Under the pieces are notes generated by a model. It searched no databases. It worked only from the letters and a program-made list of their open reading frames with translations, and was not told the DNA's origin. A stretch of 64,000 nt of DNA, from NCBI RefSeq assembly GCF_014836885.1, contig NZ_JACSPY010000006.1, forward strand, positions 1 through 64,000, read 5' to 3'. Position numbers and translations under genes: made by a program. Shown here piece after piece: positions 33,142-49,705 of this stretch. Each line of letters opens with the position of its first letter. Position 1 is the first letter of the stretch. The DNA is from Brevibacterium gallinarum (GTDB lineage: Bacteria > Actinomycetota > Actinomycetes > Actinomycetales > Brevibacteriaceae).

Positions 33142-34908
33142 ATGACGACGTCACACGCATCCGAAACCCCAGACACCGCAGCTGCGAAGGAAGCAGCCGC
33201 GAAGCAGACGTTCACCCGCCATGACCCCGAACGCGTCGTGCGCGCTCCGCGCGGCACCGAGATCACCGCCAAGACCTGGTCGACCGAAGCCGCCAAGCGG
33301 ATGCTGATGAACAACCTCGACCCCGAGGTCGCCGAACGTCCCGAAGACCTCGTCGTCTACGGCGGCACCGGCCGTGCCGCCCGCTCATGGGAGGCCTTCG
33401 ACGCGATCGTCAAGACTCTCGACGACCTCGAAGCCGATGAGACCCTCCTCGTCCAGTCCGGCAAGCCGGTCGGTGTGCTGCGCACCCACGAATGGGCCCC
33501 GCGGGTGCTCATCGCCAACTCCAACCTCGTCGGCGACTGGGCCAACTGGGAGCACTTCCGCCACCTCGAAGCTGAAGGCCTCATGATGTACGGCCAGATG
33601 ACTGCCGGCTCCTGGATCTACATCGCCACCCAGGGCATCCTGCAGGGTACCTACGAGACCTTCGCCGCCGTCGCCCGCAAGCGCTTCAACGGAACCCTGG
33701 CCGGCACGCTGACCCTCACCGCCGGCTGCGGCGGCATGGGCGGTGCCCAGCCGCTGTCGGTCACCCTCAACGGCGGCGCCTGCCTCATCATCGACGTCGA
33801 CAAGTCCCGCCTCGACCGCCGCCAGTCCAAGCGCTACCTCGACGAGGTCGAGACAGACCTCGAGGTCGCTCTCGAGAAGGTGCTCAAGGCGAAAGAAGAG
33901 AAGCGCGCGCTGTCCGTCGGCCTCGTCGGCAATGCCGCAGACATCGTCCCCGAGCTGCTCGCTCGCGACGTGCCCGTCGACATCGTCACCGACCAGACCT
34001 CGGCTCACGATCCGCTGTCCTACCTGCCGCTGGGTGTCAGCCTCGAGGACTGGCAGGCCGAAGCTGATGAGGATCCGGAGAAGTTCACGCTGCGGGCTGA
34101 GGAGTCGATGGCCAAGCACGTCGCTGCGATGGTCGGCTTCCAGGACAAGGGCGCTGAGGTCTTCGACTACGGCAACTCGATCCGCGACGAGGCCCGCAAG
34201 GCCGGCTACGATCGCGCCTTTGAGTTCCCCGGCTTCGTCCCGGCCTACATCCGCCCGCTGTTCTGCGAGGGCATGGGGCCCTTCCGCTGGGTCGCGCTCT
34301 CCGGTGACCCGCAGGACATCAAGGTCACCGACCAGGCGCTCAAGGAGCTTTTCCCCGAGAACGAGTCGCTGCATCGCTGGCTCGACGCTGCCGAGGAGTA
34401 CGTCGAGTTCGAGGGCCTGCCCGCCCGCATCTGCTGGCTGGGCTACAAGGAGCGCCACCAGGCCGGTGTGCTCTTCAACAAGCTCGTTGCCGAGGGCAAG
34501 GTCTCCGCCCCGATCGTCATCGGCCGAGACCACCTCGACTCCGGCTCCGTCGCCTCGCCCTACCGCGAGACCGAGGGCATGCTCGACGGCACCGATGCGG
34601 TCGCCGACTGGCCGCTGCTCAACGCCCTGGTCAACACCTCCTCGGGCGCGACCTGGGTGTCGCTGCATCACGGCGGCGGTGTGGGCATGGGCCGTTCGAT
34701 CCACGCCGGTCAGGTCTCGGTCGCCGATGGCACCGAGCTGGCGGAGCAGAAGCTCACCCGCCTGCTCACCAACGACCCGGGCATGGGCGTCATCCGCCAT
34801 GTCGACGCCGGCTACGACCGCGCCGTCGAGGTCGCCAAGGAGCGCCACATGCGCATCCCGATGAACCCGGAGCTCGACAAGCGCGACGAGGAGTCCGCTT
34901 CGAACTGA
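33142..34908 (+). CDS. hutU: Urocanate hydratase
   Basis: 588-aa urocanase, converting urocanate to imidazolonepropionate with tightly bound NAD+. Visible motifs include [32 protein letters not shown] (NAD-binding, near residues 193-210), [14 protein letters not shown] and [16 protein letters not shown] near the C-terminus. GAAGGAAG precedes the ATG. The rest of the hut pathway lies 12 kb downstream (46887-53103). It is followed by a strong terminator. Confidence 0.96.
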
Positions 34909-35206: not shown

Positions 35207-36940
35207 GTGAGTGATGAAGAGGTTGCGGCGATCGTCGAACGACTCCGCCAGCAGGGGTCGGACGATGGTCGTGTTGAGGTGAAGGCGGCGAGTGGTGGTC
35301 TGCCGAAATCGCTGTGGCAGTCGGTATCTGCATTCGCCAATACTCGGGGTGGCGTCGTGATCCTGGGGCTTAGCGAAGCTGACAACTTCACGCCCGCAGA
35401 GGGCTTTGAAGCTCAGAAGATCCTTGATGCGGTCGAATCGGGCTTGGGCACCAGCGCAGGGCAGCAGCCTCAAGTCGAGCCGGTGCCTCGCTACGACGTC
35501 GACATCTGCACAGTTGACGGGGCGGCGGTGGTGCTGCTCGAGATTGCATCGCTTGACCCGCAGCTCGACGCTAAGGGCCCATGTTTCGAGACGCGCAAGA
35601 GCATCTCCGCTGGCAGCTACAAGCGCGTAGCCGATAAGGACAAACACTTGTCGGCATACGAGATTCATGAGCTGCAGCAGAAATGGACGCGTCGCGGTAT
35701 CGACCACCAGCCTGTGCCCGGAACCGCGATAGATGATCTCAACCCCGAGATCATTCAGTCGACCTTTCGGTCTCTGGAGCGAAGCCGATCACGGGCGTTG
35801 GACGGTGTGGAGGACCTGCGCAGCCGGCTGCGGCGAATCAAAGCTGTAACCTCGGACGGCACGCCTACGTTTGCGGGTTACCTCACTTTCGGTTTCTTCC
35901 CGCAAGAGGAGTTCCCGCAGCTGACTATCGATGTCGCCGTACATCCAACGAGGGAGAAGGGGAGTTCGACTGCCCTCCGATTCCTTGACAGACACGTGTG
36001 TGACGGGCCCATTCCCTACGCTGTCGGTGACGCTGTGGCTCGGGTGCTGGCGAATCTTCGGACTATGCGGGTGGTGTCCGGCGTGGGTGCCGACGACGTG
36101 CCCGAGATCCCCGAAGAGGTTCTGCGCGAAGCAATAACCAATGCGGTCATGCACCGCGACTACAGCGAGTACGTCACCGGACGGCAGGTTGCCGTCGACA
36201 TCTTCCCGGATCGAGTTGAGATCACCAATCCTGGAGGTCTGTGGGGTGATCGTACTGAGTTGAATCTGGGTGACGGTCAGTCAGCGTCGCGAAATGAAGT
36301 GCTCAGCCAGCTGCTGCGGGTCACTCCTCGTGGAGAAGGCGAAGGACCCATCGCCGAGAACCAGGGAAGCGGAATCCCCCGTATGCGTTTTGAAATGCTG
36401 CAGAACGGGCTCCCTGTGCCGGTGTACGAGGCGACCCTCGACTCGGTGAAAGTGACGTTGCAGCGGCATGGTCTGCTCTCGCCGGAGACGCGGGACTGGC
36501 TCGATTCGATTCCTGGCGCAGATCGCACCAAAGAGGAGAACCTTGTGCTTGCTCTCATCCGCCACTCCGACGCAATCTCGGTTGACGGAATTCGGCAAGT
36601 GCTCGATATCGATTCTGACCGAGCGCGGTCAATCCTCGGTACTCTGCAAGGCGATGGGCTCATCACAGGGTTGGGTGATGGCCCCTACGAGCTGGCTGAA
36701 CTGTCTCCCGAACACAGGCATGCGCGCAGGCAACTGAGCACCGCGGAGCAGGAGATCATCGATGTGCTCGACACGTCGACCTCAAAGTCGATTCGTGAAA
36801 TCTCGGCTGAGTTGGAGAAACCGGTGAACTCGCTCCGACCGTTGCTGCGCACACTATCTGAAGAAGGAGTCATTGTGCCGACGGCGCCGCCCACCTCAAA
36901 GCTGCGTGCCTACCTGCTCCCTGCTGAACCCGACAGCTGA
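35207..36940 (+). CDS. Schlafen AlbA-domain / ATPase-like transcriptional regulator
   Basis: 577 aa. The N-terminal 130 residues form a Schlafen AlbA_2-type domain (VEVKAASGGLPKSLWQSVSA, FANTRGGVVILGL). A GHKL-like ATP-binding region follows (LREAITNAVMHRDYSEY, VDIFPDRVEITNPGG, ENQGSGIPRMRFEM) and a C-terminal winged-helix region (SKSIREISAELEKPVNSLRP). This layout matches COG2865-type predicted regulators. The start is the GTG at 35207; no ribosome site exists, and a TACACT hexamer 6 bp upstream suggests a leaderless mRNA. The operator array immediately upstream points to autoregulation. The signal it senses is unknown. Confidence 0.8.
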   Translation: MSDEEVAAIVERLRQQGSDDGRVEVKAASGGLPKSLWQSVSAFANTRGGVVILGLSEADNFTPAEGFEAQKILDAVESGLGTSAGQQPQVEPVPRYDVDICTVDGAAVVLLEIASLDPQLDAKGPCFETRKSISAGSYKRVADKDKHLSAYEIHELQQKWTRRGIDHQPVPGTAIDDLNPEIIQSTFRSLERSRSRALDGVEDLRSRLRRIKAVTSDGTPTFAGYLTFGFFPQEEFPQLTIDVAVHPTREKGSSTALRFLDRHVCDGPIPYAVGDAVARVLANLRTMRVVSGVGADDVPEIPEEVLREAITNAVMHRDYSEYVTGRQVAVDIFPDRVEITNPGGLWGDRTELNLGDGQSASRNEVLSQLLRVTPRGEGEGPIAENQGSGIPRMRFEMLQNGLPVPVYEATLDSVKVTLQRHGLLSPETRDWLDSIPGADRTKEENLVLALIRHSDAISVDGIRQVLDIDSDRARSILGTLQGDGLITGLGDGPYELAELSPEHRHARRQLSTAEQEIIDVLDTSTSKSIREISAELEKPVNSLRPLLRTLSEEGVIVPTAPPTSKLRAYLLPAEPDS

Positions 36941-37352: not shown

Positions 37353-37444
37353 CCGGGATGCTCCGCAGCGGGGACGACGCACCGTAACTCGGCGGCGCTC
37401 ACAGCAGACTCACCGGAGCAGAGCCGACGATCCGAAAAGTTACT

Positions 37445-37487
37445 AAAGCTGTTCATGGTTTCAGACGCGCGAACCATGAACAGCTTT
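37445..37487. other. 16-bp perfect hairpin between divergent genes
   Basis: AAAGCTGTTCATGGTT at 37445-37460 and its exact complement at 37472-37487, extendable outward (AGTTA/TAACT) to about 37439-37493. It lies between the broken gene at 36950-37352 and the dehydrogenase at 37583, which diverge. It therefore does not follow a visible gene and could be an operator, an orphan terminator or an RNA structure. Confidence 0.5.
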
Positions 37488-37582
37488 GCTAACTTTCCCC
37501 GCACGCCCGCGCCCCCCCACCTGCGGAAAGCCGACGTGCCGGTACGGAGCGCACCTGCAGGTCGAGCGCGTACATTGGGACC

Positions 37583-38557
37583 ATGGCCTGGGAATTCTGG
37601 ATCGAAGAGGCACGCTGCGGCCGCTGGCGCGAGGTCGAGGAACCGCACGCCGCCGGTAATCAGCTGCGGGTGCGCACCACCGCCTCGGCGATCTCCCGCG
37701 GCACCGAACGCCTCGTGTGGGAAGGCCGGGTCCCCGACTCCGTCGCGGGCCTCATGGCCGCCCCCGCCCAGCGCGGCACCTTCCCCTTCCCCGTCTCCTA
37801 CGGGTATCTGGCCGTCGGCACCATCGACGAGGGCTCAGCCGACCAGCTCGGCCAGCGCGTCTTCGGGCTGCTGCCGCACCACACCCACCACATTGTCGGC
37901 CCGGCTGACATCCACCCCGTGCCCGAGGCGGTGCCCACCTCGCGTGCGCTGCTCGCCGGGGCGGCCGAGACCGGAATCAATATCCTGTGGCAGGCCCCGC
38001 CGCGCTTCGGCGACCGCGTGGCCATCATCGGCGCCGGCATGATCGGGACCTCCACCGCGCTGCTGGCCGACCGGATGGGACTTGACCGCCTGGAGGTCAT
38101 CGACACCGACGCCGCACGCCGTGACATGCTCACCAGTCTCGGCCTGACCACCGCGACCCCAGATGAGGCCAGCGGCGACTGCGACATCGTCATCCACACC
38201 TCGGGAGCGGAAGCCGGCCTGACCACCGCGCTGGCCCTCACCGGCGACGACGGCACCGTCGTCGAAGCCTCCTGGTACGGCACCGACGCCCCGCGCGTGC
38301 CGCTGGGCGCGGACTTCCATGCCCGCCGCCTGTCGATCATCGCCAGTCAGGTCGGGCAGGTCGCCGCCGGCCAGCGCGCCCGCCGCACCCGCGCACAGCG
38401 GCTCGCCCAGGCGCTTGAGGCCCTGCATGACGAGCGCTTCGATTCCCTCATCACCGGTTCCACCGACTGGTCCGAGCTGCCGGTCGTCATGGACCGCGTG
38501 CTCACCGACCCCGCCAGCCTGTGCCACATCGTCGACTACCGAAGCCTGCCCGGCTGA
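37583..38557 (+). CDS. MDR-superfamily (zinc-binding alcohol dehydrogenase-like) oxidoreductase
   Basis: 324-aa medium-chain dehydrogenase/reductase. The N-terminal GroES-like part has TTASAISRGTERLVWEG. The Rossmann nucleotide site is VAIIGAGMIGTSTALLADRM near residues 153-172, with VIDTD at the end of the second strand. The structural four-Cys zinc loop is absent. TACATT ends 6 bp before the ATG and there is no ribosome site, so this first gene of the cluster is probably leaderless. It is followed 10 bp later by the PTPS-like gene. The substrate is unknown; the context suggests oxidation or reduction of a pteridine side chain or a sugar. Confidence 0.85.
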   Translation: MAWEFWIEEARCGRWREVEEPHAAGNQLRVRTTASAISRGTERLVWEGRVPDSVAGLMAAPAQRGTFPFPVSYGYLAVGTIDEGSADQLGQRVFGLLPHHTHHIVGPADIHPVPEAVPTSRALLAGAAETGINILWQAPPRFGDRVAIIGAGMIGTSTALLADRMGLDRLEVIDTDAARRDMLTSLGLTTATPDEASGDCDIVIHTSGAEAGLTTALALTGDDGTVVEASWYGTDAPRVPLGADFHARRLSIIASQVGQVAAGQRARRTRAQRLAQALEALHDERFDSLITGSTDWSELPVVMDRVLTDPASLCHIVDYRSLPG

Positions 38558-38567
38558 GAGGAGAGCC

Positions 38568-38987
38568 ATGTTCCGCCTGAGCATCAACGACCACATCATG
38601 ATCGCCCACAGCCTGCCCGACCCGTTCTTCGGCCCGGCGCAGCACATGCACGGTGCCACACTCGGCGTCGAGGCGCACTTCGAGACCGCCGAACTCGACT
38701 CCCACGGCGTCGTGCTCGACATCGGCCGGGCCGGTGAGATCCTGTCTGCAGCCCTCGACCCGCTGCGGTACGCCAACCTCGACGAGCACCCCGACTTCGC
38801 GGGCAGGATCTCGACGACCGAGGTCATCGCCGCCCACATCGGTTCCCGCCTGCGCGCAGCACTCGCCGACCGGCCCGACATCAGCATCGCCGTGACCCTG
38901 GACGAGAACCCCAACGCGCGGGTCACCTACACCGTCCCGCCGGCACCCACCCTGCATCCGGCCGATCCCGGGCCCCGGCAGGTATGA
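38568..38987 (+). CDS. 6-pyruvoyltetrahydropterin synthase / QueD-like protein
   Basis: 139-aa T-fold protein of the PTPS/QueD family. Zinc-type histidines are seen in IMIAHSL and AQHMHGATLGVEAHFE. The C-terminal LDENPNARVTYT holds the conserved Glu. The Cys normally four residues before the HxH pair is Gly here (GPAQHMH), so the standard Cys-dependent chemistry is unlikely and the product may differ from both pterin and queuosine precursors. GAGAGGAG precedes the ATG. It is coupled to the glycosyltransferase gene (ATGA overlap). Confidence 0.8.
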   Translation: MFRLSINDHIMIAHSLPDPFFGPAQHMHGATLGVEAHFETAELDSHGVVLDIGRAGEILSAALDPLRYANLDEHPDFAGRISTTEVIAAHIGSRLRAALADRPDISIAVTLDENPNARVTYTVPPAPTLHPADPGPRQV

Positions 38988-40822
38988 GCTCCCGGCCGGT
39001 CCACCTCGTCGAACCGGCTCTCGGCCGGGCCTCCGGCGGGGCCCGCTACAACCGTGCTGTCACCGATGCCGCCGCCGGGCAGATCGCCCTGCACGCGGTG
39101 CCCGGGTCCTGGCCCGCACCGACGGCTCATGATGAGGCCCGTGTGCACGCGCTGCTGACCGAGTTGGAGGGCCCGGTGGTCCTCGACGGGCTGCTCGGCT
39201 GCGCCCTCAGCACCCCGCCCGAGCATGACGGCCCGCTGCTGCAGCTCGTCCATCTGCCCCGGGGACGAGGCGGCGGCGAGGCTTTCGCACGTGAGCGCGC
39301 CTGCCTGCATGCCGCCGATGGCATCATCGTCACCAGTCAGCATGCCGCCGGCGAGATCGCCGAGCTCTACGGGCTCGGTGCTGCCGTCGCCCGGCCGGGC
39401 ACCGTGCCGCGTCCGTTCACCGTTCCCGAGGCGGCGGGCACCCGCCTGCTGTGCCTCGCCTCGGTCGAGGAGCGCAAGAACCAGCTGCTGCTCGCCCGAG
39501 CACTGGCCGACGTTACGGAAGTGATGCCGGATGCCGGTCTGCGCTGCGTGTTCGCCGGCCCGATCACCGAACCGGACTACGCCGAGCAGCTGCGCGAAGC
39601 ACTCGCGGGTCTGCCGGCCGGAAGTTGGGAGATCACCGGCGAACTCGACGCATCCGGCGTCGACGCCGCCCTCGCGGCAGCCGATCTGCTCGTGCTGCCC
39701 TCGGTCCATGAGACCTACGGGATGGTCATCACCGAAGCGGCGGCTGCCGGCATTCCCGCCTTCGTCACCGCCGGCACCGGGGCAGAGGAGGCCCTGCAGG
39801 CAGGCCGGGCACTGCCATCGGACCCGGCCGCCTGGGCCGAAGCGCTCAAGAGGTGGCTCGGCGACGAGAACGAGCGCGCCCGACTGCGGGCGGAAGCACA
39901 GCAGGCCCGTGCGGATCTGCCCGGCTGGGAGACGACAGCGGCCGCGCTGCTGGCCGCCGTCGACGCCGCGGCAGAGCGACACAGTGCCGGCCCATCCTCG
40001 CCGGAGCGCGGCGACTGGCTCGACATGCGCATCGCCTATGACAACACCGCCCGCACCGCCTCACTGCCGCTCATCGACGCCGCCCTCGCCGCCCTGCCCG
40101 ACGGCGGCCCGGGCCTGCGGATCTGCGACATCGGCGCGGGCACCGGCAACTCGGCGCTGTGGTTCGATGCAGCTTTCGGCGACCGCGGGGTCACCGAACG
40201 CGACTGGCTGCTCATCGACGACAACCCGACCGCTCTCGCCCAGGCCGCCGCCCGCATCGCTGAGGCCCCCGAACGCCGCGCCGAGACCTGCCGTGCCCCG
40301 ATCGCCGAGCTGCCCCGCCTGCTCGGCGTCGGCCGGCCCGTCGATCTCATCACCGGCAGCGCCGTCCTCGACGTGCTGCGCCCGGCCGATGCCACCGCCC
40401 TCATCGACACCCTGGCCGCCACCGGGGCACCGGGCCTGTTCCTGCTCACCATCACCGGCGACTGGCACCTCGACCCCGTCCACCCGGCCGATGCGCACAT
40501 CGCCGCCGCCTTCGCCGCCCACCAGCAGCGCGAGGGACGCCTCGGCGCCGACGCGGCCGGCCACCTGCAGACAGCCGCTGAAGCCGCCGGCATGACAGTC
40601 CAGACGACAGCGAGCCCGTGGCAGCTGAACGCCGCCGACGACCACGCCTTCCTCACCCGGTTCCTCACCGACCGGATCACCGCCGCCACCGAATACGAAC
40701 CCGCCAGCGCAGATCTCTTCGCCGACTGGCTCAACGATCGCCTGGCAGATGCGAGCCTCACCGTCACCGTCGACCACCGCGACCTGCTCATCCTGCCCAC
40801 CACACCAGGGGAGGAGCGATGA
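38984..40822 (+). CDS. Glycosyltransferase family 4 - SAM methyltransferase fusion
   Basis: 612 aa, two enzymes in one chain. Residues 1-330 are a GT-B glycosyltransferase (LLCLASVEERKNQLLLARAL; LVLPSVHETYGMVITEAAAA with the donor-binding acid). Residues 345-600 are a class I methyltransferase (ICDIGAGTGNSALWFDAAF as motif I, DWLLIDDNPTAL, LITGSAVLDVL). The start overlaps the PTPS-like stop and the end overlaps the flippase-like gene. The fusion implies that sugar transfer and methylation act on the same intermediate. I cannot name donor or acceptor. Confidence 0.85.
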   Translation: MSSRPVHLVEPALGRASGGARYNRAVTDAAAGQIALHAVPGSWPAPTAHDEARVHALLTELEGPVVLDGLLGCALSTPPEHDGPLLQLVHLPRGRGGGEAFARERACLHAADGIIVTSQHAAGEIAELYGLGAAVARPGTVPRPFTVPEAAGTRLLCLASVEERKNQLLLARALADVTEVMPDAGLRCVFAGPITEPDYAEQLREALAGLPAGSWEITGELDASGVDAALAAADLLVLPSVHETYGMVITEAAAAGIPAFVTAGTGAEEALQAGRALPSDPAAWAEALKRWLGDENERARLRAEAQQARADLPGWETTAAALLAAVDAAAERHSAGPSSPERGDWLDMRIAYDNTARTASLPLIDAALAALPDGGPGLRICDIGAGTGNSALWFDAAFGDRGVTERDWLLIDDNPTALAQAAARIAEAPERRAETCRAPIAELPRLLGVGRPVDLITGSAVLDVLRPADATALIDTLAATGAPGLFLLTITGDWHLDPVHPADAHIAAAFAAHQQREGRLGADAAGHLQTAAEAAGMTVQTTASPWQLNAADDHAFLTRFLTDRITAATEYEPASADLFADWLNDRLADASLTVTVDHRDLLILPTTPGEER

Positions 40823-41724
40823 CCCAGGTGCCCGACACCTCGGCGGCGGCCCACGAGACTCGGCAGACCGCGCCACGGCGCGCCCGCAGCTGGGCCAGGC
40901 CGTGGATGCGGGTGCTCGCCGTCGTCGCCAGCGTCGTGCTTCTCGTCATCACCGCCCGGCTCATCGGCACGCAGGCGCTCGCCGCAGGTTTCACCGCGCT
41001 CGGACCGGTGAGCATCCTCGCTGCGCTCGGCCTCGGGGCCATCTCCACCGGCGCGCAGGCGATGCGCTGGCACCTGCTCGCCGGCTCCCGCGGCATCGAA
41101 CTCGGCTACCGGCGGGCGCTGGCCGACTGCTACGCCTCCAGTCTTGCGAACATGGTGCTTCCCGGCGGGCTGGCCGGGGACGCCGTGCGGGCAGCGGTCT
41201 ACCGCGACCGCGGCAGCCGCCGCTGGCTCTCACCGCTCATCGCGATCGGGGCCGAACGACTGAGCGCGACGACGCTGCTCTTCGCTGCCGCCGCGGCCAT
41301 CCTCTTCCAGCACTCGGCATCCGCATTCGCCGCCGGTGCTGCGGCTGCGGCCGTGTCGCTCGCGTGTCTCATCGCCGCGTTCGTGTGCATGCGCGGCATG
41401 CCGGTCCGTCGGCAGCTCATCGTGTGGGCGACCTCTGCGGCCAGCGTGGCGGCACTCGTCGCACTCTTCCTCGTGGCCATGCGCGCGCTGGGCGGCGGGA
41501 TCGAACCGATCGTGGCGATCATCGGGCTGGCGGCGATGAGCCTGCCGGTCGGCGTCGGCGGGTGGGGTGCCCGCGAACTGTCCGTCGGACTGCTCGCCGG
41601 GCCCCTGGCCCTGCAGGCCGAAGCCGCGGTCAGCGCGGCCACCGCCTACGGGCTGCTCGCCACCGTCTCCACCCTGCCGGGGCTGGCCGTGCTGCTGTGG
41701 CACTGGCTGCGCCGGCCGCGCTGA
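40819..41724 (+). CDS. Flippase-like membrane protein (LPG synthase TM / UPF0104 family)
   Basis: 301-aa integral membrane protein with about eight helices and the family pattern ADCYASSLANMVLPGGLAGD followed by VRAAVYRD. Relatives include the membrane half of lysylphosphatidylglycerol synthase and UPF0104 proteins linked to lipid or glycolipid export. In this cluster a role in moving a lipid-linked product across the membrane fits. GGGGAGGAG precedes the ATG at 40819; the stop lies 1 bp from the end of the convergent RibA-like gene. Confidence 0.85.
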   Translation: MTQVPDTSAAAHETRQTAPRRARSWARPWMRVLAVVASVVLLVITARLIGTQALAAGFTALGPVSILAALGLGAISTGAQAMRWHLLAGSRGIELGYRRALADCYASSLANMVLPGGLAGDAVRAAVYRDRGSRRWLSPLIAIGAERLSATTLLFAAAAAILFQHSASAFAAGAAAAAVSLACLIAAFVCMRGMPVRRQLIVWATSAASVAALVALFLVAMRALGGGIEPIVAIIGLAAMSLPVGVGGWGARELSVGLLAGPLALQAEAAVSAATAYGLLATVSTLPGLAVLLWHWLRRPR

Positions 41725-41725
41725 A

Positions 41726-43081
41726 TCAGCTCTCCAGCAGCCCCGAGGTGTTCTGCTGGGCGGTGTGGCTGAGGACGAACTCGGTGCACACATCGGCATC
41801 GAAGAGGTGCCTGCGGAACGGCACCCGCAGCGCCTCGGCCATGACCGGCGAACCGGCAAACCGCAGTCCCGGCACCCCATCGCCGATGAGCACCGGCGCC
41901 AGCGTCAGGAACAGCCGATCGAGGACACCGGCGGCCAGGAAGTCCGAGACCGTCCGGCCGCCGCCTTCGATGAGCACCGCACCCGGGACATGCTCGCGCA
42001 CGACCGCCAGCACCTGAGCAGGTGAGACCGGTTCGTCACCGGTTTCCGGCAGCCGGGCGACGGTGACATGATCTGCCAGGTCAGCCGGCACCTCGGCGGC
42101 GGGACCGACGAGCCACAGCGTCTCCGCTGCCCCATCGGTGAGCACCCGCCGGTCGGCTGGGATCCGGGCGTGCGGGTCGAGCAGCACGCGCACCGGGTTC
42201 TCACCTGCGACCGCGCGCACGGTCAGCTGCGGGTCATCGGCGACGACGGTCTGCGCGCCGACGACGACTGCGGCGACAGCCGCGCGCAGCCGGTGCAGAT
42301 GCGCCCGGTCGGCCTCCCCGGAGACGAATGCGGCATCCCCGCTCCGGGCGGCGATGAACCCGTCGGCGCTCTGTGCGAGCTGGGCGACCACCTCGGCGCC
42401 GGCGGTGATCGCAGCGTAGTCCGGGCCCGAGGTGCCGGTCGCCTGGGCGGCCGCCACCGGCGCCTCGGGCACGGCGCGCGGGCGGTCGTGGTGCATGCGG
42501 CGGCGCTTCGTGTCGAGGTAACCGGCGTTCTCCGGCCGGTCGGCGACCGGCAGCATGCGCCGCTCGGTCACCTCGATGCCGAGATCCTCCAGTGCGGCGG
42601 CTTTCGTCGGATTGCTCGACAGCAGCCGGACGCGGGTGATGCCGAGAGCTTCGAGCATCTGGGCGGCGGCGGTGTAGTCGCGGGCGTCATCGGGCAGCCC
42701 GAGGCGCCGGTTGGCATCGACGGTGTCGAGGCCGGCGTCCTGCAGCTCATAGGCCTCCAGCTTGGGCCCGAGTCCGATGCCGCGGCCCTCATGGCCGCGC
42801 AGGTAGAGCAGCACACCGCAGCCGGCGTCGGCGATCGCGGCCAGCGCCGCCTGCAGCTGGTCGCCGCAGTCGCAGCGATGCGAACCGAGCGCATCGCCGG
42901 TGAGGCACTCGCTGTGCATCCGCACGAGCGGGGCGGTTGCGGCAGACGGGTCGCCGGCGACCATCGCGACGTGCGTGGTGCCGCCGGCGTCGAAGGCGTA
43001 GGTGGTGAACACACCGTGATCGGTGGGCAGCATCGTGCGTGCCCGCTGGTGAAGCGTGGTGCCGGATTCGGAGATGGCCAT
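41726..43081 (-). CDS. GTP cyclohydrolase II - RibD-type reductase fusion
   Basis: 451 aa. Residues 1-210: GTP cyclohydrolase II with the zinc site SECLTGDALGSHRCDCGDQL and YLRGHEGRGIGL; the Tyr in LEAYELQD matches catalytic Tyr105 of E. coli RibA. Residues 235-451: RibD C-terminal (DHFR-like) reductase (VVVGAQTVVADDPQLTVR, VLIEGGGRTVSDFL, LAPVLIGDGVPGL). The deaminase and DHBP synthase domains of riboflavin enzymes are missing, so it should make and perhaps reduce the opened pyrimidine from GTP without committing to riboflavin. Start at 43081: TAGACT ends 7 bp upstream and there is no ribosome site. The open frame runs on to 43708 without support. Confidence 0.88.
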   Translation of the reverse strand: MAISESGTTLHQRARTMLPTDHGVFTTYAFDAGGTTHVAMVAGDPSAATAPLVRMHSECLTGDALGSHRCDCGDQLQAALAAIADAGCGVLLYLRGHEGRGIGLGPKLEAYELQDAGLDTVDANRRLGLPDDARDYTAAAQMLEALGITRVRLLSSNPTKAAALEDLGIEVTERRMLPVADRPENAGYLDTKRRRMHHDRPRAVPEAPVAAAQATGTSGPDYAAITAGAEVVAQLAQSADGFIAARSGDAAFVSGEADRAHLHRLRAAVAAVVVGAQTVVADDPQLTVRAVAGENPVRVLLDPHARIPADRRVLTDGAAETLWLVGPAAEVPADLADHVTVARLPETGDEPVSPAQVLAVVREHVPGAVLIEGGGRTVSDFLAAGVLDRLFLTLAPVLIGDGVPGLRFAGSPVMAEALRVPFRRHLFDADVCTEFVLSHTAQQNTSGLLES

Positions 43082-43091
43082 GGATGACAGT

Positions 43092-43802
43092 CTAGGCCGG
43101 GTTGCCGTCAGCCGGGTCAGCGGCATGGCCGCGTTCGAGGGCGATGATGTCGAGGGCGAAGGAGACAAGGAGGCTTGCCACGGCCGCGATCGCGCACGCC
43201 CACCCGAACGCCGGGACCGCCAGACCCGGTGGGGAGCCGGCGGCCAGCAGCAGCGGGCCCTGGAACGCCGCGACCGTCTTGCGCCGCCACGACGGCGGCA
43301 GCTCGGTATTCCAGGCCGGCCGGATCGCCGCACCTGCCCGGAAAGCGAAGTGCGCCAGCCCGCTGATGAGACACCAGGCGCCGTAGAGCGGCACAAGCCC
43401 GACCGACAACACAAGCACGACGGTCGCGTCGACCCGCTCATCGAATCGAGCGCCGGCTGCGGTCGTCGCGGTCGCCCGGGCGATGAGCCCGTCGACGAGG
43501 TCGAGAGCGAGCATCGGGATCGCGATCGCGACCGCCAGCCACCCGAAACCCGGTCCCGGGTGGACGGCGATGGCGGCGATGACGATGAGCAGCATGGCCA
43601 GCCGCACGCAGGTGACGCAGTCGGCCCAATGCCAGCTGGTGGCCGTTCCCGAGGCGGTGGTCGCCTCACGGCAGGCGAGCACCGGCCAGGCGCCGAGGAT
43701 CCCGGCACCAGCGGCCAGGATGATCGGCACCGGTGAGGCCGCCAGCCACCCGGCCACAGCGAGGCCGGCTGCGAGGATGATGATGACGATGAACCGCTGC
43801 AT
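43092..43802 (-). CDS. CDP-alcohol phosphatidyltransferase
   Basis: 236-aa membrane enzyme of the CDP-alcohol phosphatidyltransferase family. The diagnostic DG-x2-AR-x8-G-x3-D-x3-D motif is complete (LVDGLIARAT... GARFDERVD). It transfers a phosphoalcohol from a CDP-activated donor to an alcohol acceptor. Two hydrophobic helices start the protein. Its ATG overlaps the SRPBCC gene's stop (ATGA). A copy of the palindromic repeat (43645-43667) encodes EATTASG in a loop before the first catalytic helix. The acceptor is presumably made by this cluster. Confidence 0.88.
   Translation of the reverse strand: MQRFIVIIILAAGLAVAGWLAASPVPIILAAGAGILGAWPVLACREATTASGTATSWHWADCVTCVRLAMLLIVIAAIAVHPGPGFGWLAVAIAIPMLALDLVDGLIARATATTAAGARFDERVDATVVLVLSVGLVPLYGAWCLISGLAHFAFRAGAAIRPAWNTELPPSWRRKTVAAFQGPLLLAAGSPPGLAVPAFGWACAIAAVASLLVSFALDIIALERGHAADPADGNPA
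43645..43667. repeat. Copy of the dispersed GC-rich palindromic repeat (in a gene)
   Basis: GTTCCCGAGGCGGTGGTCGC then CTC: GAGGCG-GTGGT-CGCCTC is a perfect hairpin. It is read here on the minus strand as EATTASG inside the phosphatidyltransferase. Confidence 0.6.
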
Positions 43803-44281
43803 CAGCACCCGCCTGAGCCTGTACGAGGGGACAGGAGTTCGCGCAGCCCGCGCTCGCCTGCGGCCATGACATGCCGGTGCGCCCACCCGGCGAGCGGGCT
43901 GCAGGCGTTGACGGCGACCCGGCGCGAGGCCACCGCCCACTCGAAGGTCATCCGGGTGCCCGACACCTCGGGCACGGCACGCCACGTCCCGGTGCCGCAC
44001 AGGTCCCCGCTGACGGCCAGCTCAGCGGCGTGCGGGGCAGCGACGGTCGTGAGGCTCAGCAGGAAGTCGAGGTGGAAGCCCAGCGGGCTGCCGACGATGA
44101 TCCGGGCGCGGGTGCCCGGGGCGATCGTGCCGGTGGCGGCGAAGAGCTGCGCCTCGCGCACGCCGGGCCACCAGCCCGGCCAGCCGTCGACAGCGCACAG
44201 CGCCTGCCAGCACCGATCCGTCTCAGCTGGGATGTGCCACTGTGAGACGAAGCGGTACCGGCGCGGCGCTGTGAGGGTCAT
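43802..44281 (-). CDS. SRPBCC-fold (START/polyketide cyclase-like) protein
   Basis: 159-aa protein with the SRPBCC pattern: an early strand RFVSQWHIPAETDRCWQALC, then DGWPGWWPGV, and a C-terminal helix HRHVMAAGERGLRELL. Such proteins bind hydrophobic ligands or act as cyclases. First gene of the minus-strand half of the cluster. TAGGCT ends 6 bp before the ATG, again without a ribosome site. Confidence 0.8.
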   Translation of the reverse strand: MTLTAPRRYRFVSQWHIPAETDRCWQALCAVDGWPGWWPGVREAQLFAATGTIAPGTRARIIVGSPLGFHLDFLLSLTTVAAPHAAELAVSGDLCGTGTWRAVPEVSGTRMTFEWAVASRRVAVNACSPLAGWAHRHVMAAGERGLRELLSPRTGSGGC

Positions 44282-44313: not shown

Positions 44314-45168
44314 TCAGCCGCGGTCGGCGCGGCGGCGCATCGTCACCGCGACGGCAGCCCCGCCGATGACGAGGAGGGCGGCGCCACCGGCTGCCAGTGC
44401 GGTGGTCTCGCTGCCGGTGCGCGGCAGAGTGCCGCTGGCCCGCTTGGCATCATCGGGCTTGTTCGCGCCATCGGAACCGGCCTTGGCGTCATTGGACTTC
44501 TCGTCCTCATCCGCGGCGTCGTCGGCCTGCTTGTCCTCATCGGCCTTCTTGTCGCCAGCGCCGTCGTCGTCCGTGGCGTCGTCTTCGGGTGCCGGGGTCT
44601 CCTCCGGTGCGTCGGTCTCATCCTCACCCGGTGCGTCCTCGTCCTTCTCGGAGTCATCGCCCTCGTCCTCGGACAGGAACTCCTCTGGGATCGGCAGCGA
44701 CTCGGTGGTGAAGCCGGTGAAGGCCTCCTCCTGGCCCTTGAAGCCGCGGAAGTGCACCTGCTGCGGATCGGTCTTGCCGGCGGCGAGCTCGGAATCGACG
44801 ATGCGCACCTGCATCGTGCACGTGATCGTGCGGCCGGGTTCCAGGCCGGGGAAGATCCAATCGCAGGCCAGCCACATCTCCTGGCCCTCGTCGTCGATGT
44901 AGCTCTCGTCCTTGTCGTTGAAGGCGCGCAGCGTGCCGTCGGCGGGCACGTCGCCGGAGTTCGTCACGTCGAAGCGGTACTCCTCGACCAGACCGTAGGT
45001 CGAGTCGTCCTTGATGGTCTGGGACTTCAGCTTGAACGTCAGCTCGCGCTTCTGCTCCTGCTCCGGGCCCGAGGTGTCGACCGGGGTGGCGGCGTGGGCT
45101 GCGGCGGTGCCGACGAACGGGGCTGCGGTGACGGCGCCGGCCACCAGCAGTGCGGGGATCTTCTTCAT
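44314..45168 (-). CDS. LPRTG-anchored acidic surface protein
   Basis: 284 aa. Signal peptide MKKIPALLVAGAVTAAPFVG, cut near residue 27. Residues 30-150 look like an Ig-like beta domain (VEEYRFDVTNSGDVPADGTL) with a Cys pair (ACDWIFP, ITCTMQV). A long Asp/Glu/Lys stalk (about 170-245) precedes TLPRTG, a hydrophobic helix and RRRADRG. A sortase would anchor it to the wall. Ligand unknown. The 5' region holds a copy of the palindromic repeat. AAGGAC is 14 nt from the ATG, further than ideal. Confidence 0.85.
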   Translation of the reverse strand: MKKIPALLVAGAVTAAPFVGTAAAHAATPVDTSGPEQEQKRELTFKLKSQTIKDDSTYGLVEEYRFDVTNSGDVPADGTLRAFNDKDESYIDDEGQEMWLACDWIFPGLEPGRTITCTMQVRIVDSELAAGKTDPQQVHFRGFKGQEEAFTGFTTESLPIPEEFLSEDEGDDSEKDEDAPGEDETDAPEETPAPEDDATDDDGAGDKKADEDKQADDAADEDEKSNDAKAGSDGANKPDDAKRASGTLPRTGSETTALAAGGAALLVIGGAAVAVTMRRRADRG

Positions 45169-45439: not shown

Positions 45440-46660
45440 GTGACGACGCTGAAATCCTCATTCACAACCCTTGGTGCAGTGCTCCTGGCTGTGCTCATGG
45501 CGATGATGCCCAGTCCCGCACTGGCAGAGCCGGGTGTCGCCAACTCCGAGGTCACCTACTCCGCCGACGGTCAGACGTTCACAGAGGTCGAGCCCGACGG
45601 GCCCGTGCCGCGCAGCAATGACGGCGTCATCGTCAGGCCGGGCGGCAGGCCCAACACAAAGATCACATTCATCCGGCACTCGACGACGAACGTGCAGAAT
45701 CTCGATGTCGTCATCGCCGTGCGCGATCTCGCTGAACTCACGGCCTCGCGTGGGAACCCGAGCGATTTCCTCATCACGATCGTCGTCGACGGTGTCGAAT
45801 CCGAGGAGTACCGGTTCGGCGACCTCTTCGCTGACGGTGAGCCGTACGACGGCGATCCGAAGGTGCGCCGCGTCGGTCCGGCGATCGAGCTGACTGGTGA
45901 CGTCGGCGAGGTCCACGAGGTGAAGATTCTGCATCGCCTGCCCTTTGAGAGCGGCAACGAGTCGCAGCGAGCAGTGTTCCTGCACAACCTCGCAGTCATC
46001 CCGGAGGCGCCGAGTCCGTCGCCGACCCCGACTGAGACGGAAACGCCTTCGCCCACTCCGACCGCAACGGACACTCCGTCACCCGCGCCCACTGACACGG
46101 AAACGCCGTCGCCGAGCCCGACGGCAACTGAAACCGAGACCCCGTCCCCATCGCCAACGGCAACAGAGACTGAGACGCCGTCCCCGTCACCGACCGCAAC
46201 TGAAACTGAAACTCCGTCACCGTCACCGACTGTGACGGAGACTCCATCACCGACTCCGACAGACACCGAGACTCCATCACCGTCGCCGACGGACACTGAT
46301 ACTCCTTCGCCATCACCGACCGAAACGGAGACCCCGTCGCCGAGCCCGTCGGTGACAGAGACTGATACTCCGTCACCATCCCCCACGGACACGGAGACTC
46401 CTTCGCCGACGCCGACGCAGACCGAGGTTCCGACTCCGACGGCCACTGCCACGGAGTCCGATGTGCCCCGGCCGACCGGCGAGCCGACGGATCAGCCGGG
46501 CCCGCCGCGCGATGACGACCGGCCCGGCCCACCGCGCGACGATGACCGGAAGCCACTGCCGCGCACCGGTTCCGATGTCGCCCTCGGTTTGGGTCTCGGG
46601 ATCGCGCTCGTCGGCATCGGCACCGCCGCAGCACTGGCCGGGCGCCGCCGCCGAGCCTGA
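45440..46660 (+). CDS. LPRTG-anchored protein with long Pro-Ser-Thr stalk
   Basis: 406 aa. Signal peptide (GAVLLAVLMAMMPSPALA, cut near 29), one beta-rich domain of about 150 residues (VIVRPGGRPNTKITFIRHST, ITIVVDGVESEEYRFGDL), then about 140 residues of PSPTPT/TETETPSP repeats, PLPRTG, a hydrophobic helix and GRRRRA. A sortase substrate in which the repeats span the wall. Start is a GTG at 45440 with GGAG 7 nt upstream. Divergent from the LPRTG gene at 44314-45168. Binding partner unknown. A 14-bp hairpin terminator follows. Confidence 0.86.
   Translation: MTTLKSSFTTLGAVLLAVLMAMMPSPALAEPGVANSEVTYSADGQTFTEVEPDGPVPRSNDGVIVRPGGRPNTKITFIRHSTTNVQNLDVVIAVRDLAELTASRGNPSDFLITIVVDGVESEEYRFGDLFADGEPYDGDPKVRRVGPAIELTGDVGEVHEVKILHRLPFESGNESQRAVFLHNLAVIPEAPSPSPTPTETETPSPTPTATDTPSPAPTDTETPSPSPTATETETPSPSPTATETETPSPSPTATETETPSPSPTVTETPSPTPTDTETPSPSPTDTDTPSPSPTETETPSPSPSVTETDTPSPSPTDTETPSPTPTQTEVPTPTATATESDVPRPTGEPTDQPGPPRDDDRPGPPRDDDRKPLPRTGSDVALGLGLGIALVGIGTAAALAGRRRRA
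46015..46450 (+). repeat. Pro/Ser/Thr/Glu repeat region of the LPRTG protein
   Basis: Imperfect 18-36 bp units encoding PSPSPTATETETP variants. They share codons but differ at third positions, so the array is older than the one at 31483-31650. Confidence 0.75.
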
Positions 46661-46748: not shown

Positions 46749-46886
46749 CGATAATGGAGTGAGTCCGGTGCCTGGAAACCTCTCGCGGTGGCACTCTGGA
46801 GACGACTGCCGTGTGCGCGCCATCCACGCGGCCAGACGCCGAACGACCACGGCGATGACGCCGCCGGCCAGCGCAGAAGGGAAACC

Positions 46887-48104
46887 ATGGGCACCATCCT
46901 CGTGACCGACATTTCGGAGCTCGTGACCAACGACCCGTCAGCCGCCACCGCAGACCCAGCCACCACCTCGGCGCCGGAGGGCTACGAACGCCTCGGCGTC
47001 ATCACCGACGCCGCGATGCTCATCGACGGCGACACCGTCAGCTGGGTCGGCCCAGCTGCTGACGCCCCTGCCGGTGACACGACGATCTCCGCCAAGGGCG
47101 GCGCGGTCATCCCCGGCTTCGTCGACAGCCACAACCACCTCGTCTTCGCCGGTGACCGCTCCGCTGAGTTCGCCGCCCGGATGGCCGGCCAGAAGTACTC
47201 CGCCGGCGGCATCGCCACCACGGTCGCCGCAACCCGCGCGGCCAGCGACGCCGAACTCGAAGACAACCTCACGATGCTCATGCGCCAGGCCGAGCACTCC
47301 GGGACCACGACCTTCGAGATCAAGACCGGCTACGGGCTCACGCTTGACGACGAGATCCGCCAGCTCGACATCATCAACCGCCACACCGATGAGTCCACCC
47401 TCATCGCCGCCCACGTCGTCCCGCCGGAGTACAAGGACGACCCCGAGGGCTACGTCGATCTCGTCATCGATGAGATCATCCCGGCCGCCGCCGGCAAAGC
47501 GAAGTGGATCGACGTGTTCTGCGAAGAGGGCGCCTTCACCGAAGACCAGACCGCCCGCATCCTCGACGCCGGCGTCGCCGCCGGCATGCGCCCGCGCCTG
47601 CACGCCAACCAGCTCACCGCAGGCGGGGCGCTGCAACTGGCCGCCGCACACAGCTGCGCCTCGGCCGATCACGCGACCTTCGCCTCGGACGCGGACCTTG
47701 CCGCCCTCGCTGAGGCCGGCACCGTGGCCACCCTGCTGCCCGGCGTCGAGTTCTCCACCCGCCAGCCCTACCCCGACGCCCGCCGCTTCCACGCCGCCGG
47801 CGTCACCGTCGCCATCGCCAGTGACTGCAACCCCGGCTCGTGCTTCACCAGCTCGATCCCCTTCTGCATCGCCCTGGCCGTGCGCGACATGCACTTCACC
47901 GTCGAACAGGCCGTCTGGTCGGCCACCGCCGGCGGCGCCGCCGCACTCGAACGCTCCGACATCGGCCGGCTGAGCCCCGGCGCCCGCGCCGACTTCTCCA
48001 TCCTCACCGCCCCCAGCTACCGGCACCTGGCCTACCGGCCCGGCGTCAACCTCATCGCCGAAGTCCACCGCGCCGGCCGCCCGATCGCCGTCAACCCATC
48101 CTGA
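46887..48104 (+). CDS. hutI: Imidazolonepropionase
   Basis: 405-aa amidohydrolase opening imidazolonepropionate to N-formimino-L-glutamate. Metal site HNH in [16 protein letters not shown], substrate Lys/Tyr region [10 protein letters not shown], His in [12 protein letters not shown], and the late SDCNPGSC motif. AGAAGGGAA lies before the ATG at 46887; the open frame starts earlier (46788) without a ribosome site. First gene of the hutIH-M20-hutF-iclR operon. Confidence 0.95.
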
Positions 48105-48115
48105 AAGGCACCCAC

Positions 48116-49705
48116 ATGACTGCTTCTGTCGCCCTCGAACCCAATGCGCTGACCTTCGCCGACGTCGTCGCTGTCGCCCGCCATGACGCGCAGGTCACCG
48201 TGCCCGAGGCGGTGGCTGAGACCGTGGCCGCCAACCGTGCCGCAGTCGAGGCGCTGGCCGAGGCGCCGCGCCCGGTCTACGGTGTCTCCACCGGTTTCGG
48301 TGCGCTCGCCCAGCGCCACATCGCCCACGATCTGCGCGCGCAGCTGCAGAAGTCCCTCATCCGCTCGCACGCCGCTGGCGTCGGCACCCCGGTCGAACGC
48401 GAGGTCGTGCGCGCGCTCATGCTGCTGCGTGCCCGCACCCTGGCCACCGGTCGCACCGGTGTGCGCCTGGAGACCCTCCAGACCTACGTCGCGATCCTCA
48501 ACGCCGGCATCACCCCGGTCGTCTACGAATACGGGTCGCTGGGCTGCTCGGGTGACCTCGCGCCCCTGTCGGCCTGCGCACTGGTGGCAATGGGTGAAGG
48601 CGAGGTCCACGGACCCGACGGCACCACCGCCTCGGCCGCGGACGCCCTCGCCGAAGCCGGCATCGAACCGCTCGAACTCGCCGAGAAGGAGGGCCTGGCG
48701 CTCGTCAACGGCACCGACGGGATGCTCGGCATGCTCATCCTCGCCCTGCACGACATCGAGAACCTGCTCACGACCGCAGACCTGACCGCCGCGATGAGCG
48801 TTGAAGCGCAGCTGGGCACCGACCGGGTGTTCATGCCCGATCTGCACGAGCCGCTGCGCCCCCACCCCGGCCAGGCCGCCTCGGCAGCGAACATGCTCAC
48901 TGCGCTTGAGGGCTCGCCGATCGTCGCCAGCCACCGCGACTCGACCCACCTCGTCCAGGACGCCTACTCGCTGCGCTGCACCCCGCAGGTCACCGGTGCC
49001 GCTCGCGATGCCGCCGCCTACGCCGCCCAGGTCGCCGCCCGTGAACTGCGCTCAGCCATCGACAACCCCGTCGTGCTGCCTGACGGTTCGGTGTCCTCGA
49101 ACGGCAACTTCCACGGCGCACCGCTGGCCCACGCGCTCGACTTCCTCGCCATCGCCGTCGCCGATGCCGCCAACATCGCCGAACGCCGCACCGACCGGAT
49201 GATGGACGTCGCCCGCAACGAGGGCCTGCCGCCCTTCCTCGCCGACGACGCCGGTGTCGACTCCGGGCTCATGATCGCCCACTACACGCAGGCCGCCCTC
49301 GTCTCCGAGCTCAAGCGCCTGGCCACCCCTGCCAGCGTCGACTCGATCCCCTCATCTGCCATGCAGGAGGATCACGTCTCGATGGGCTGGTCGGCCGCCC
49401 GGAAGCTGCGCACCGCGGTGACGAACTTCGCCTCCGTGCTCGGCATCGAACTCTACGCCGCCGCCCGTGCCACCGACCTGCGCGAGGCCGACCCGGCCGC
49501 CGTCACCGGCGCGGTCATCAGCCTGCTGCGCCAGACCGTCCCCGGCCCCGGCCCGGACCGGTTCCTCTCACCGGAGCTCGCCGATGCGATCGAGCTCGTC
49601 GCCTCCGGCCAGGTCAGCGCCGCCGCCGAGGCGGTGGCCGGCCTGACGCATACCCTCACCGACACCGATGGCACCGTGCTGAATGGACGGAGTGAACAGT
49701 CATGA
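48116..49705 (+). CDS. hutH: Histidine ammonia-lyase
   Basis: 529 aa, removes ammonia from histidine to give urocanate. The prosthetic MIO group forms from the tripeptide in GSLGCSGDLAPLSA; here it is Cys-Ser-Gly rather than the commoner Ala-Ser-Gly, a variant I recall from other actinobacteria. Other motifs are GVSTGFGALAQ near residue 59 and QEDHVSMGW near 418. A weak AAAGG precedes the ATG at 48116, 11 bp after hutI. The CGAGGCGGTGG oligomer occurs three times (48200, 48624, 49625). The end overlaps the M20 gene (ATGA). Confidence 0.95.
   Translation: MTASVALEPNALTFADVVAVARHDAQVTVPEAVAETVAANRAAVEALAEAPRPVYGVSTGFGALAQRHIAHDLRAQLQKSLIRSHAAGVGTPVEREVVRALMLLRARTLATGRTGVRLETLQTYVAILNAGITPVVYEYGSLGCSGDLAPLSACALVAMGEGEVHGPDGTTASAADALAEAGIEPLELAEKEGLALVNGTDGMLGMLILALHDIENLLTTADLTAAMSVEAQLGTDRVFMPDLHEPLRPHPGQAASAANMLTALEGSPIVASHRDSTHLVQDAYSLRCTPQVTGAARDAAAYAAQVAARELRSAIDNPVVLPDGSVSSNGNFHGAPLAHALDFLAIAVADAANIAERRTDRMMDVARNEGLPPFLADDAGVDSGLMIAHYTQAALVSELKRLATPASVDSIPSSAMQEDHVSMGWSAARKLRTAVTNFASVLGIELYAAARATDLREADPAAVTGAVISLLRQTVPGPGPDRFLSPELADAIELVASGQVSAAAEAVAGLTHTLTDTDGTVLNGRSEQS

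Follow-up and report, generated by a model that had tools for sequence, protein, structure and literature searches.

What compound is made by the seven tightly packed genes at positions 37583-44281 of a 64,000-nucleotide stretch of Brevibacterium gallinarum DNA (contig NZ_JACSPY010000006.1 of assembly GCF_014836885.1; hereafter the window)? The genes encode a fusion of GTP cyclohydrolase II (RibA) with a RibD-type reductase domain (RibD_C), a PTPS-like protein, an MDR-fold dehydrogenase, a fusion of a GT4 glycosyltransferase with a methyltransferase, a CDP-alcohol phosphotransferase (CDP-AP), a flippase-like membrane protein and an SRPBCC-like protein. This combination matches no riboflavin, folate or queuosine cluster, as an earlier inspection of the letters alone (the sequence-only reading) had stated when it proposed a pteridine- or pyrimidine-linked glycolipid. 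Judged from the sequences, the cluster may be a side branch of riboflavin synthesis. GTP would be opened and its ribose reduced to give a pyrimidine polyol phosphate, which would then be tailored, receive a sugar and a methyl group and, in many lineages, be joined to a lipid; we give this reading as a whole a probability of about 45%. No product assigned to this gene set was found in the open-licence PMC literature, which is a real gap for a set that actinobacteria and proteobacteria have both conserved and that turns up in single genomes of other phyla.

The RibA-RibD_C fusion and riboflavin supply

The RibA domain of the fusion has all three zinc cysteines, plus a switch tyrosine and an arginine that correspond to Tyr105 and Arg128 of the E. 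coli enzyme. These intact motifs are consistent with the GTP-opening start that had been proposed, and the domain probably forms 2,5-diamino-6-ribosylamino-4(3H)-pyrimidinone 5'-phosphate (DARoPP). The second domain matches PF01872 with 117 bits, over the cut-off, and contains the SxDG, TxxxD and EGG motifs of the pyrimidine reductase, the columns of which are invariant in 16 chosen rows of alignment A3. Its nearest solved relative, 6p8c (80.6 bits), is a reductase that acts on DARoPP before deamination. The fusion consists of these two domains only and lacks the N-terminal deaminase domain of bifunctional RibD. A full RibD is encoded on contig C13 of the same genome, as are RibB, RibE and RibH, all outside the cluster.

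Inspection of contig C13 (locus L120, 2934-5321) revealed a single open frame of ∼879 codons that encodes RibD, RibE and RibB and no RibA; RibH lies 143 bases beyond this frame with no RibA between. A search of the window genome with PF00925 matched the fusion and nothing else, so that the cluster RibA is the only one found there, a feature that the sequence-only reading had not foreseen. As the sole copy found, it must double as the riboflavin enzyme, provided that the organism synthesizes this vitamin; the assembly comprises 39 contigs and is rated 99.98% complete, and a further RibA could lie in a gap. The sister genome (G019) likewise has a single PF00925 match, inside its cluster. The RibB match of this sister (contig C21, 16058-16623) is split over two frames, which reflects either a sequencing error or a real break. 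Ornithinimicrobium laminariae also has a single PF00925 match inside its cluster (locus L020), together with a RibB frame of 231 amino acids (completeness of this genome not given). The missing housekeeping RibA in two lineages ties the vitamin pathway to the cluster and would make the cluster RibA essential there.

A sample of 57 Brevibacterium genomes was searched for PF00925 and for PTPS-IV, the PTPS subgroup to which the cluster protein belongs. PTPS-IV was present in 20 genomes, among them all 18 that have two PF00925 matches (Fisher p = 6e-13 over the 57 genomes, uncorrected for kinship). The remaining two are the window genome and its sister, where the one PF00925 match is that of the cluster, and the 37 genomes without PTPS-IV have one PF00925 match or none. 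One genus mate of 2.4 Mb (G024) contains no PF00925 match at all and is possibly a riboflavin auxotroph. In every one of the 15 two-copy genomes fetched, out of 18, the second PF00925 match was located in the rib operon. RibB and RibA form one frame beside RibD and RibE in all 20 housekeeping loci fetched, comprising those from these 15 of the 18 cluster-bearing two-copy genomes and from five genomes without the cluster. In each of the 19 other cluster loci of the genus, RibA and RibD_C are joined in a single frame.

Conservation of the cluster across phyla

To place the window locus among its relatives, named genome contigs were scanned with an alignment of PTPS-IV, and the best 80 of at least 582 confirmed stretches were analyzed as loci, 21 of which have at least one flank shorter than 9 kb. 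Their labels are Actinomycetota (40), Pseudomonadota (36), Bacteroidota (2), Planctomycetota (1) and Myxococcota (1). Two doubtful labels were counted as given: L027 ("Thalassobius") has recurring frames in common with Saprospiraceae loci, and the RibD_C of L015 ("Solirubrobacterales") is nearly identical to that of Microbacterium L014. The MDR protein accompanies PTPS-IV in 79 of the 80 loci, a glycosyltransferase lies within 2.5 kb in 63 and a glycosyltransferase-like frame anywhere in 75, followed by RibD_C (42), the methyltransferase (41), CDP-AP (32), the membrane protein (25) and RibA (23). Outside the Arthrobacter group, RibA or RibD_C is found in 42 of 55 loci. The cluster core recurs in lineages as far apart as actinobacteria, Rhodobacter relatives and a planctomycete, and clustering of the neighboring frames without any query returned the cluster families too. 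Within the genus, 18 of the 19 other cluster loci keep MDR, PTPS, glycosyltransferase, methyltransferase, membrane protein, RibA-RibD_C and CDP-AP in the same order. The neighborhood is not due to chance, and the idea of a conserved, dedicated cluster is borne out.

One of the seven genes does not belong to this conserved set. SRPBCC was rejected as a core member, being present in three of the 80 loci and one of the 19 genus loci (though L189 has one 1 kb from MDR); within the genus it is confined to the window genome and its sister. The same two genomes are the only ones in the genus in which glycosyltransferase and methyltransferase form a single frame, the two being separate in the other genus loci that have both. 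The "seven" are six conserved genes and one local gene.

In a sample of 396 genomes of the phylum, a strong PTPS-IV match (at least 129.8 bits) was found in 19; a further 24 weaker matches (at most 83.6 bits), all outside the class, were set aside as presumed other PTPS types and not counted. At least two PF00925 matches were present in 18 of the 19 strong genomes, the window genome being the exception, compared with 11 of 41 other order- or class-level genomes. In a tree of 73 RibA rows, the actinobacterial cluster RibAs and the housekeeping RibBA copies fell into different groups, with moderate support (91/97 and 90/73). The cluster RibAs of other groups, and those of L190, L191 and L202, were placed elsewhere, and RibA therefore seems to have been recruited more than once.

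Two types of cluster RibA were distinguished. The first, in which all three zinc cysteines are kept together with the switch tyrosine and the arginine, occurs in the window, in 19 Brevibacterium loci and in 21 from other groups; in the RibA of Rothia L013, glutamate replaces the aspartate at E. coli position 126. Among 14 further loci of the order or class, three have this tyrosine, two have no RibA, and nine of Streptomyces type have methionine at the switch position. SCO6655 of Streptomyces coelicolor is reported (Spoonamore 2006) to be a GTP cyclohydrolase II in which this methionine halts the reaction at FAPy, the formyl compound. The nine methionine-type RibAs form one clade (100/100) and thus represent one evolutionary event, not nine. 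A creatininase-family gene (PF02633; 214 bits) lies beside RibA in 9 of 9 methionine-type loci, as judged by a one-sequence search with Pfam run on two of the nine, and was found in none of the 43 tyrosine-type loci searched (19 Brevibacterium, 21 others and three further). BrbF, which is annotated as a creatininase, deformylates FAPy to DARoPP in Sinorhizobium and Brucella, according to passages of PMC9478397, and by analogy the creatininase-family protein of the methionine-type clusters is likely a FAPy deformylase. In the simplest reading, both RibA types probably deliver DARoPP, a riboflavin intermediate, into a pyrimidine branch. On this view, the retention in Streptomyces of a cyclohydrolase that reportedly goes no further than the formyl compound would make sense, and the two types (tyrosine alone, or methionine plus a creatininase-family protein) offer a testable entry point.

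Tailoring proteins and a possible product

The FGPAQ motif is described as the signature of PTPS-IV, in which CxxxHGH and ExxHGH are absent, in part of PMC5445326. Residues F21, G22, P23, A24 and Q25, together with H28, G29 and A30, are conserved in 23 of 23 chosen rows of alignment A1, which assigns the window protein to this group. A profile comparison with rat PTPS (1b66) and two other structures revealed that HGH has become HGA and LDHKNLD has become LRYANLD, such that the Asp-His pair of the rat enzyme is Arg-Tyr in the window protein. By the residue roles of PTPS enzymes (zinc histidines, catalytic Asp-His, pterin binding), PTPS-IV appears from these alignments to have lost one ligand of the full zinc site and the catalytic pair. 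Near the C terminus, one glutamate of active-site type is kept: E113 is invariant in the 23 chosen rows and matches the EtP-motif glutamate of 2g64 in the alignment. An STTE stretch is common to PTPS-IV and rat PTPS. The nearest solved PTPS structure is that of SCO6650 (3d7j; 86 bits).

The MDR model (mean pLDDT of 93.6) matches alcohol dehydrogenases, including butanediol, sorbitol, idonate and xylitol dehydrogenases, at 13-19% identity. Ser-38 and Tyr-75 are invariant in 17 chosen rows and occupy the zinc cysteine and histidine positions of zinc-type relatives, presumably, given that these positions were placed by eye against the zinc motif. The protein apparently has an alcohol/polyol-dehydrogenase fold without the usual zinc residues. 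The NCBIfam likenesses of the GT4 domain, to MshA among others, are weak and under the cut-off, and a fold search with the methyltransferase returned generic class I enzymes only. The DxxDGxxAR...GxxxDxxxD motif of CDP-AP is invariant in 18 of 18 chosen rows of alignment A2.

These features can be assembled into the following tentative scheme. The RibA domain would open GTP to DARoPP, the ribose of which would be reduced by the RibD_C domain to the ribityl form. PTPS-IV may bind the ribityl pyrimidine and, with MDR, alter its side chain, which is a guess. GT4 would then add a sugar and the methyltransferase a methyl group, CDP-AP would couple the phosphorylated polyol with CDP-diacylglycerol in the manner of PgsA, which uses glycerol phosphate, and the membrane protein would move the product. 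Since the window lineage lacks the RibA half of the housekeeping RibBA, its riboflavin would depend on this RibA as well. We infer all steps after RibA, and the protein features fit a phosphorylated polyol substrate.

Several observations weigh against this scheme, besides the guesswork in the PTPS-IV and MDR step. RibA is clustered in only 23 of the 80 loci and RibD_C in 42, and no RibD_C lies near 8 of the 9 methionine-type RibAs. The best NCBIfam match of the creatininase-family protein is mycofactocin MftE (133.9 bits) and ArfB reaches 36.6 bits, both under cut-off, so that a deformylase role is an indirect assignment. In the CDP-AP profile search, cholinephosphotransferases are the nearest PDB relatives, at 37.7 bits, and PgsA (32.2 bits) is the next kind of enzyme, so that neither donor nor acceptor is fixed by them. 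Within the genus, the cluster of one genome (G008, locus L123) holds MDR, PTPS, glycosyltransferase and RibA-RibD_C only; the methyltransferase, membrane protein and CDP-AP are absent from it, and CDP-AP is encoded on another contig. The 25 Arthrobacter-group loci contain MDR (25), the glycosyltransferase (24) and rarely RibD_C (2), with RibA, methyltransferase, membrane protein and CDP-AP in none, and in 15 genomes of this group cluster-type CDP-AP was absent from 11 and unlinked in four. This places the lipid step, and perhaps the reduction, outside the universal core. A hidden dedicated RibA was considered for the Arthrobacter group and rejected, a strong RibA match being located in the rib operon in all 13 loci fetched; the check covered the strong matches, and one further locus, L233, showed a RibA without rib neighbors.

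A lipid end product is plausible but not universal. CDP-AP is present in 32 of the 80 loci, in 18 of 19 genus loci and in 12 of the 14 further loci of the order or class (L189 and L202 have none). The glycolipid of the sequence-only reading thus stands as a plausible product in many lineages and falls as a universal one, given that Arthrobacter-group loci keep MDR, PTPS and glycosyltransferase while 11 of 15 genomes are without CDP-AP. A family with an LtaS-like sulfatase fold lies near 21 loci, none of them actinobacterial; of five members scanned, alone or with an adjoining frame, four exceeded the PF00884 cut-off and one gave no match. CDP-AP, LtaS-like protein and membrane protein are consecutive, head to tail, in five alphaproteobacterial loci (L021, L039, L047, L050 and L076). 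The three frames overlap in L039 (15534-18630). A CDP-AP-LtaS-like fusion, first read from such overlaps, was rejected, since none of the 21 LtaS-like frames has a CDP-AP match and the two are neighbors only. The far-reaching version of the proposal, which we regard as unlikely, is a new class of envelope lipid or membrane cofactor in several phyla: a glycosylated ribityl-diaminopyrimidine made from GTP, anchored through a phosphodiester by a dedicated CDP-AP, with LtaS-like transfer in Gram-negatives and a RibA shared with riboflavin, at least two lineages living from the cluster copy.

Other explanations of the cluster differ in how far they account for these observations. MDR, PTPS-IV and the glycosyltransferase could yield the core product, a pyrimidine that is glycosylated and soluble, with methylation, lipid attachment and flipping as lineage-specific additions. 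The sparse Arthrobacter-group loci, the absence of cluster-type CDP-AP from 11 of 15 genomes of that group and the four-gene cluster of G008 all speak for it, so that we hold it possible, if on balance doubtful, in the face of CDP-AP in 32 and the membrane protein in 25 of 80 loci and the near-constant presence of CDP-AP in Brevibacterium (18 of 19) and in the further loci (12 of 14). A pteridine pathway, in which the substrate of PTPS-IV would be dihydroneopterin triphosphate or a related pterin and the cluster would make a glycosylated pterin, draws on the PTPS fold, on the alignment of E113 with the 2g64 glutamate and on the shared STTE stretch, both linked to pterin binding in PTPS enzymes. 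It is improbable: HGH is HGA and the Asp-His pair is Arg-Tyr, the cyclohydrolase present is of type II, and no GTP cyclohydrolase I was seen among neighbor families that recur in five or more genera. To our knowledge no enzyme of the set closes a pteridine ring, and the pteridine half of the sequence-only reading is disfavored by the missing catalytic and zinc residues.

That the fusion is a displaced pair of riboflavin genes serving riboflavin only, among unrelated neighbors, would suit the window genome, with its one PF00925 match and a RibB without its RibA half. Such a sole role, which the sequence-only reading had named as its refutation, is very unlikely. A second PF00925 match accompanies the fusion in 18 of the 20 genus genomes with the cluster, and in the 15 of these 18 that were fetched it always belongs to the rib operon; no genome among the 37 lacking PTPS-IV has two. 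The recurrence of the cluster neighbors in other phyla also argues against it. A part of the review PMC5041015 attributes PTPS-IV to archaeal F420 synthesis, as unpublished. An F420-related role is nevertheless hardly to be expected here, as no F420 gene family was seen among the neighbors recurring in five or more genera, F420 genes (FbiA/B/C-type) not being searched individually. We know of no F420 role for a glycosyltransferase, methyltransferase or CDP-AP of this kind.

Locus layout and relation to known systems

The proposed riboflavin side branch is encoded in the window by two converging units (Table 1), read in their own directions as MDR, PTPS, GT4-methyltransferase fusion and LPG_synthase_TM protein, and as SRPBCC, CDP-AP and RibA-RibD_C fusion. 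At 38984 and 40819 neighboring genes share 4 bases, at 43802 a single base, and 1 base separates the stop codons of the two units. An alternative start of the RibA-RibD_C fusion is possible at 43033. The families named at the outset, and their arrangement, were confirmed by frames, Pfam and fold models. PTPS, GT4, LPG_synthase_TM, GTP_cyclohydro2, RibD_C and CDP-OH_P_transf matches exceeded the curated Pfam cut-offs; those of MDR, methyltransferase and SRPBCC fell under them, the first two identities being settled by fold models and the SRPBCC assignment remaining weak. A promoter scan found none, and a terminator scan found two against an expected 1.2 ± 1.3.

Table 1. Genes of the cluster, in window coordinates
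Feature	Position	Strand	Evidence or parts
MDR-fold dehydrogenase, BchC/HpnZ-like, apparently zinc-free subfamily	37583..38557	+	Pfam below cut-off, fold model
PTPS-IV (FGPAQ) T-fold protein, relative of SCO6650	38568..38987	+	Pfam over curated cut-off
GT4 and class I SAM methyltransferase fusion	38984..40822	+	GT4 ~38984-39988; methyltransferase ~40007-40822
Membrane protein, LPG_synthase_TM (flippase-like) domain	40819..41724	+	Pfam over curated cut-off
RibA-RibD_C fusion	41726..43081	-	GTP cyclohydrolase II domain 42557-43042; pyrimidine reductase domain 41873-42391
CDP-AP, catalytic motif complete	43092..43802	-	Pfam over curated cut-off
SRPBCC-like protein, local addition	43802..44281	-	Pfam matches below cut-off

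A long palindrome lies between the upstream gene and the cluster (37436-37496), with perfect 16-bp arms at 37445-37460 and 37472-37487 and an RNA fold z of -7.0; a second copy with identical arms and a different loop is present on contig C11. The cluster is flanked by a urocanase gene (hutU; 33142-34908) and by putative hutI and hutH (46788-49705; named by eye). hutU and hutI also flank the cluster of the sister genome, hutI/hutH lie near it in L124 and L132, and hut genes flank it in none of the other 16 genus loci. A protein with Schlafen/AlbA_2 and HATPase_c_4 domains is encoded between hutU and the cluster (35207-36940) and has no match in the locus of the sister (L128). On the other side, 44314-45168 encodes an anchor-like protein with a Gram_pos_anchor match just under cut-off, and 45440-46660 a predicted secreted protein that contains a long Pro-Ser-Thr-Glu repeat and ends in LPRTG. 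In other genomes, cytochrome b561 recurs beside alphaproteobacterial clusters (L063, 13020-13574, and 14 other loci), as does an MdoH-type glucan glucosyltransferase in some (L075, 6983-8851, and six other loci). An FkbM methyltransferase family was found at 15 loci, one of them actinobacterial, and ABC ATPase-like and SDR-like families (named by eye) recur at median distances of 7-8 kb.

Comparison with known systems begins with the SCO6650-SCO6655 region of S. coelicolor, which the sequence-only reading had named as a place where PTPS and RibA homologues occur together. For SCO6650 this proved sound: besides the 86-bit likeness of the window PTPS-IV to its structure, the Streptomyces-type locus L198 encodes a protein that matches it with 264.6 bits. 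Loci of this type resemble the window in carrying CDP-AP, MDR, PTPS, glycosyltransferase, methyltransferase, membrane protein and RibA. The window differs from them in the tyrosine at the RibA switch, the RibD_C fusion and the absence of a creatininase from its seven genes. Toxoflavin-type pathways likewise are side branches that start with GTP cyclohydrolase II and a RibD-like protein; their tailoring genes are different and are not known to include PTPS, GT4 or CDP-AP. SCO6655 appears in the portion of PMC2853524 consulted as a riboflavin-metabolism table entry only.

With the riboflavin pathway itself (RibBA, RibD, archaeal ArfB and bacterial BrbF) the cluster shares the RibA and RibD_C families, and the creatininase-family protein of the methionine-type clusters parallels BrbF as portrayed in passages of PMC9478397; unlike that pathway, the cluster is without a deaminase domain, RibB, RibH and RibE. 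The closest precedent is AGeNNT (2017; PMC5445326), where the relevant part describes a PTPS-IV cluster of 561 sequences that has the same FGPAQ signature and the same PF00925 and PF01872 neighbors. That part names those two neighbors only and calls PF00925 GTP cyclohydrolase I/FolE2 (section 19). To it the present analysis adds MDR, the glycosyltransferase, the methyltransferase, CDP-AP, the membrane protein, the creatininase-family protein and the missing housekeeping RibA.

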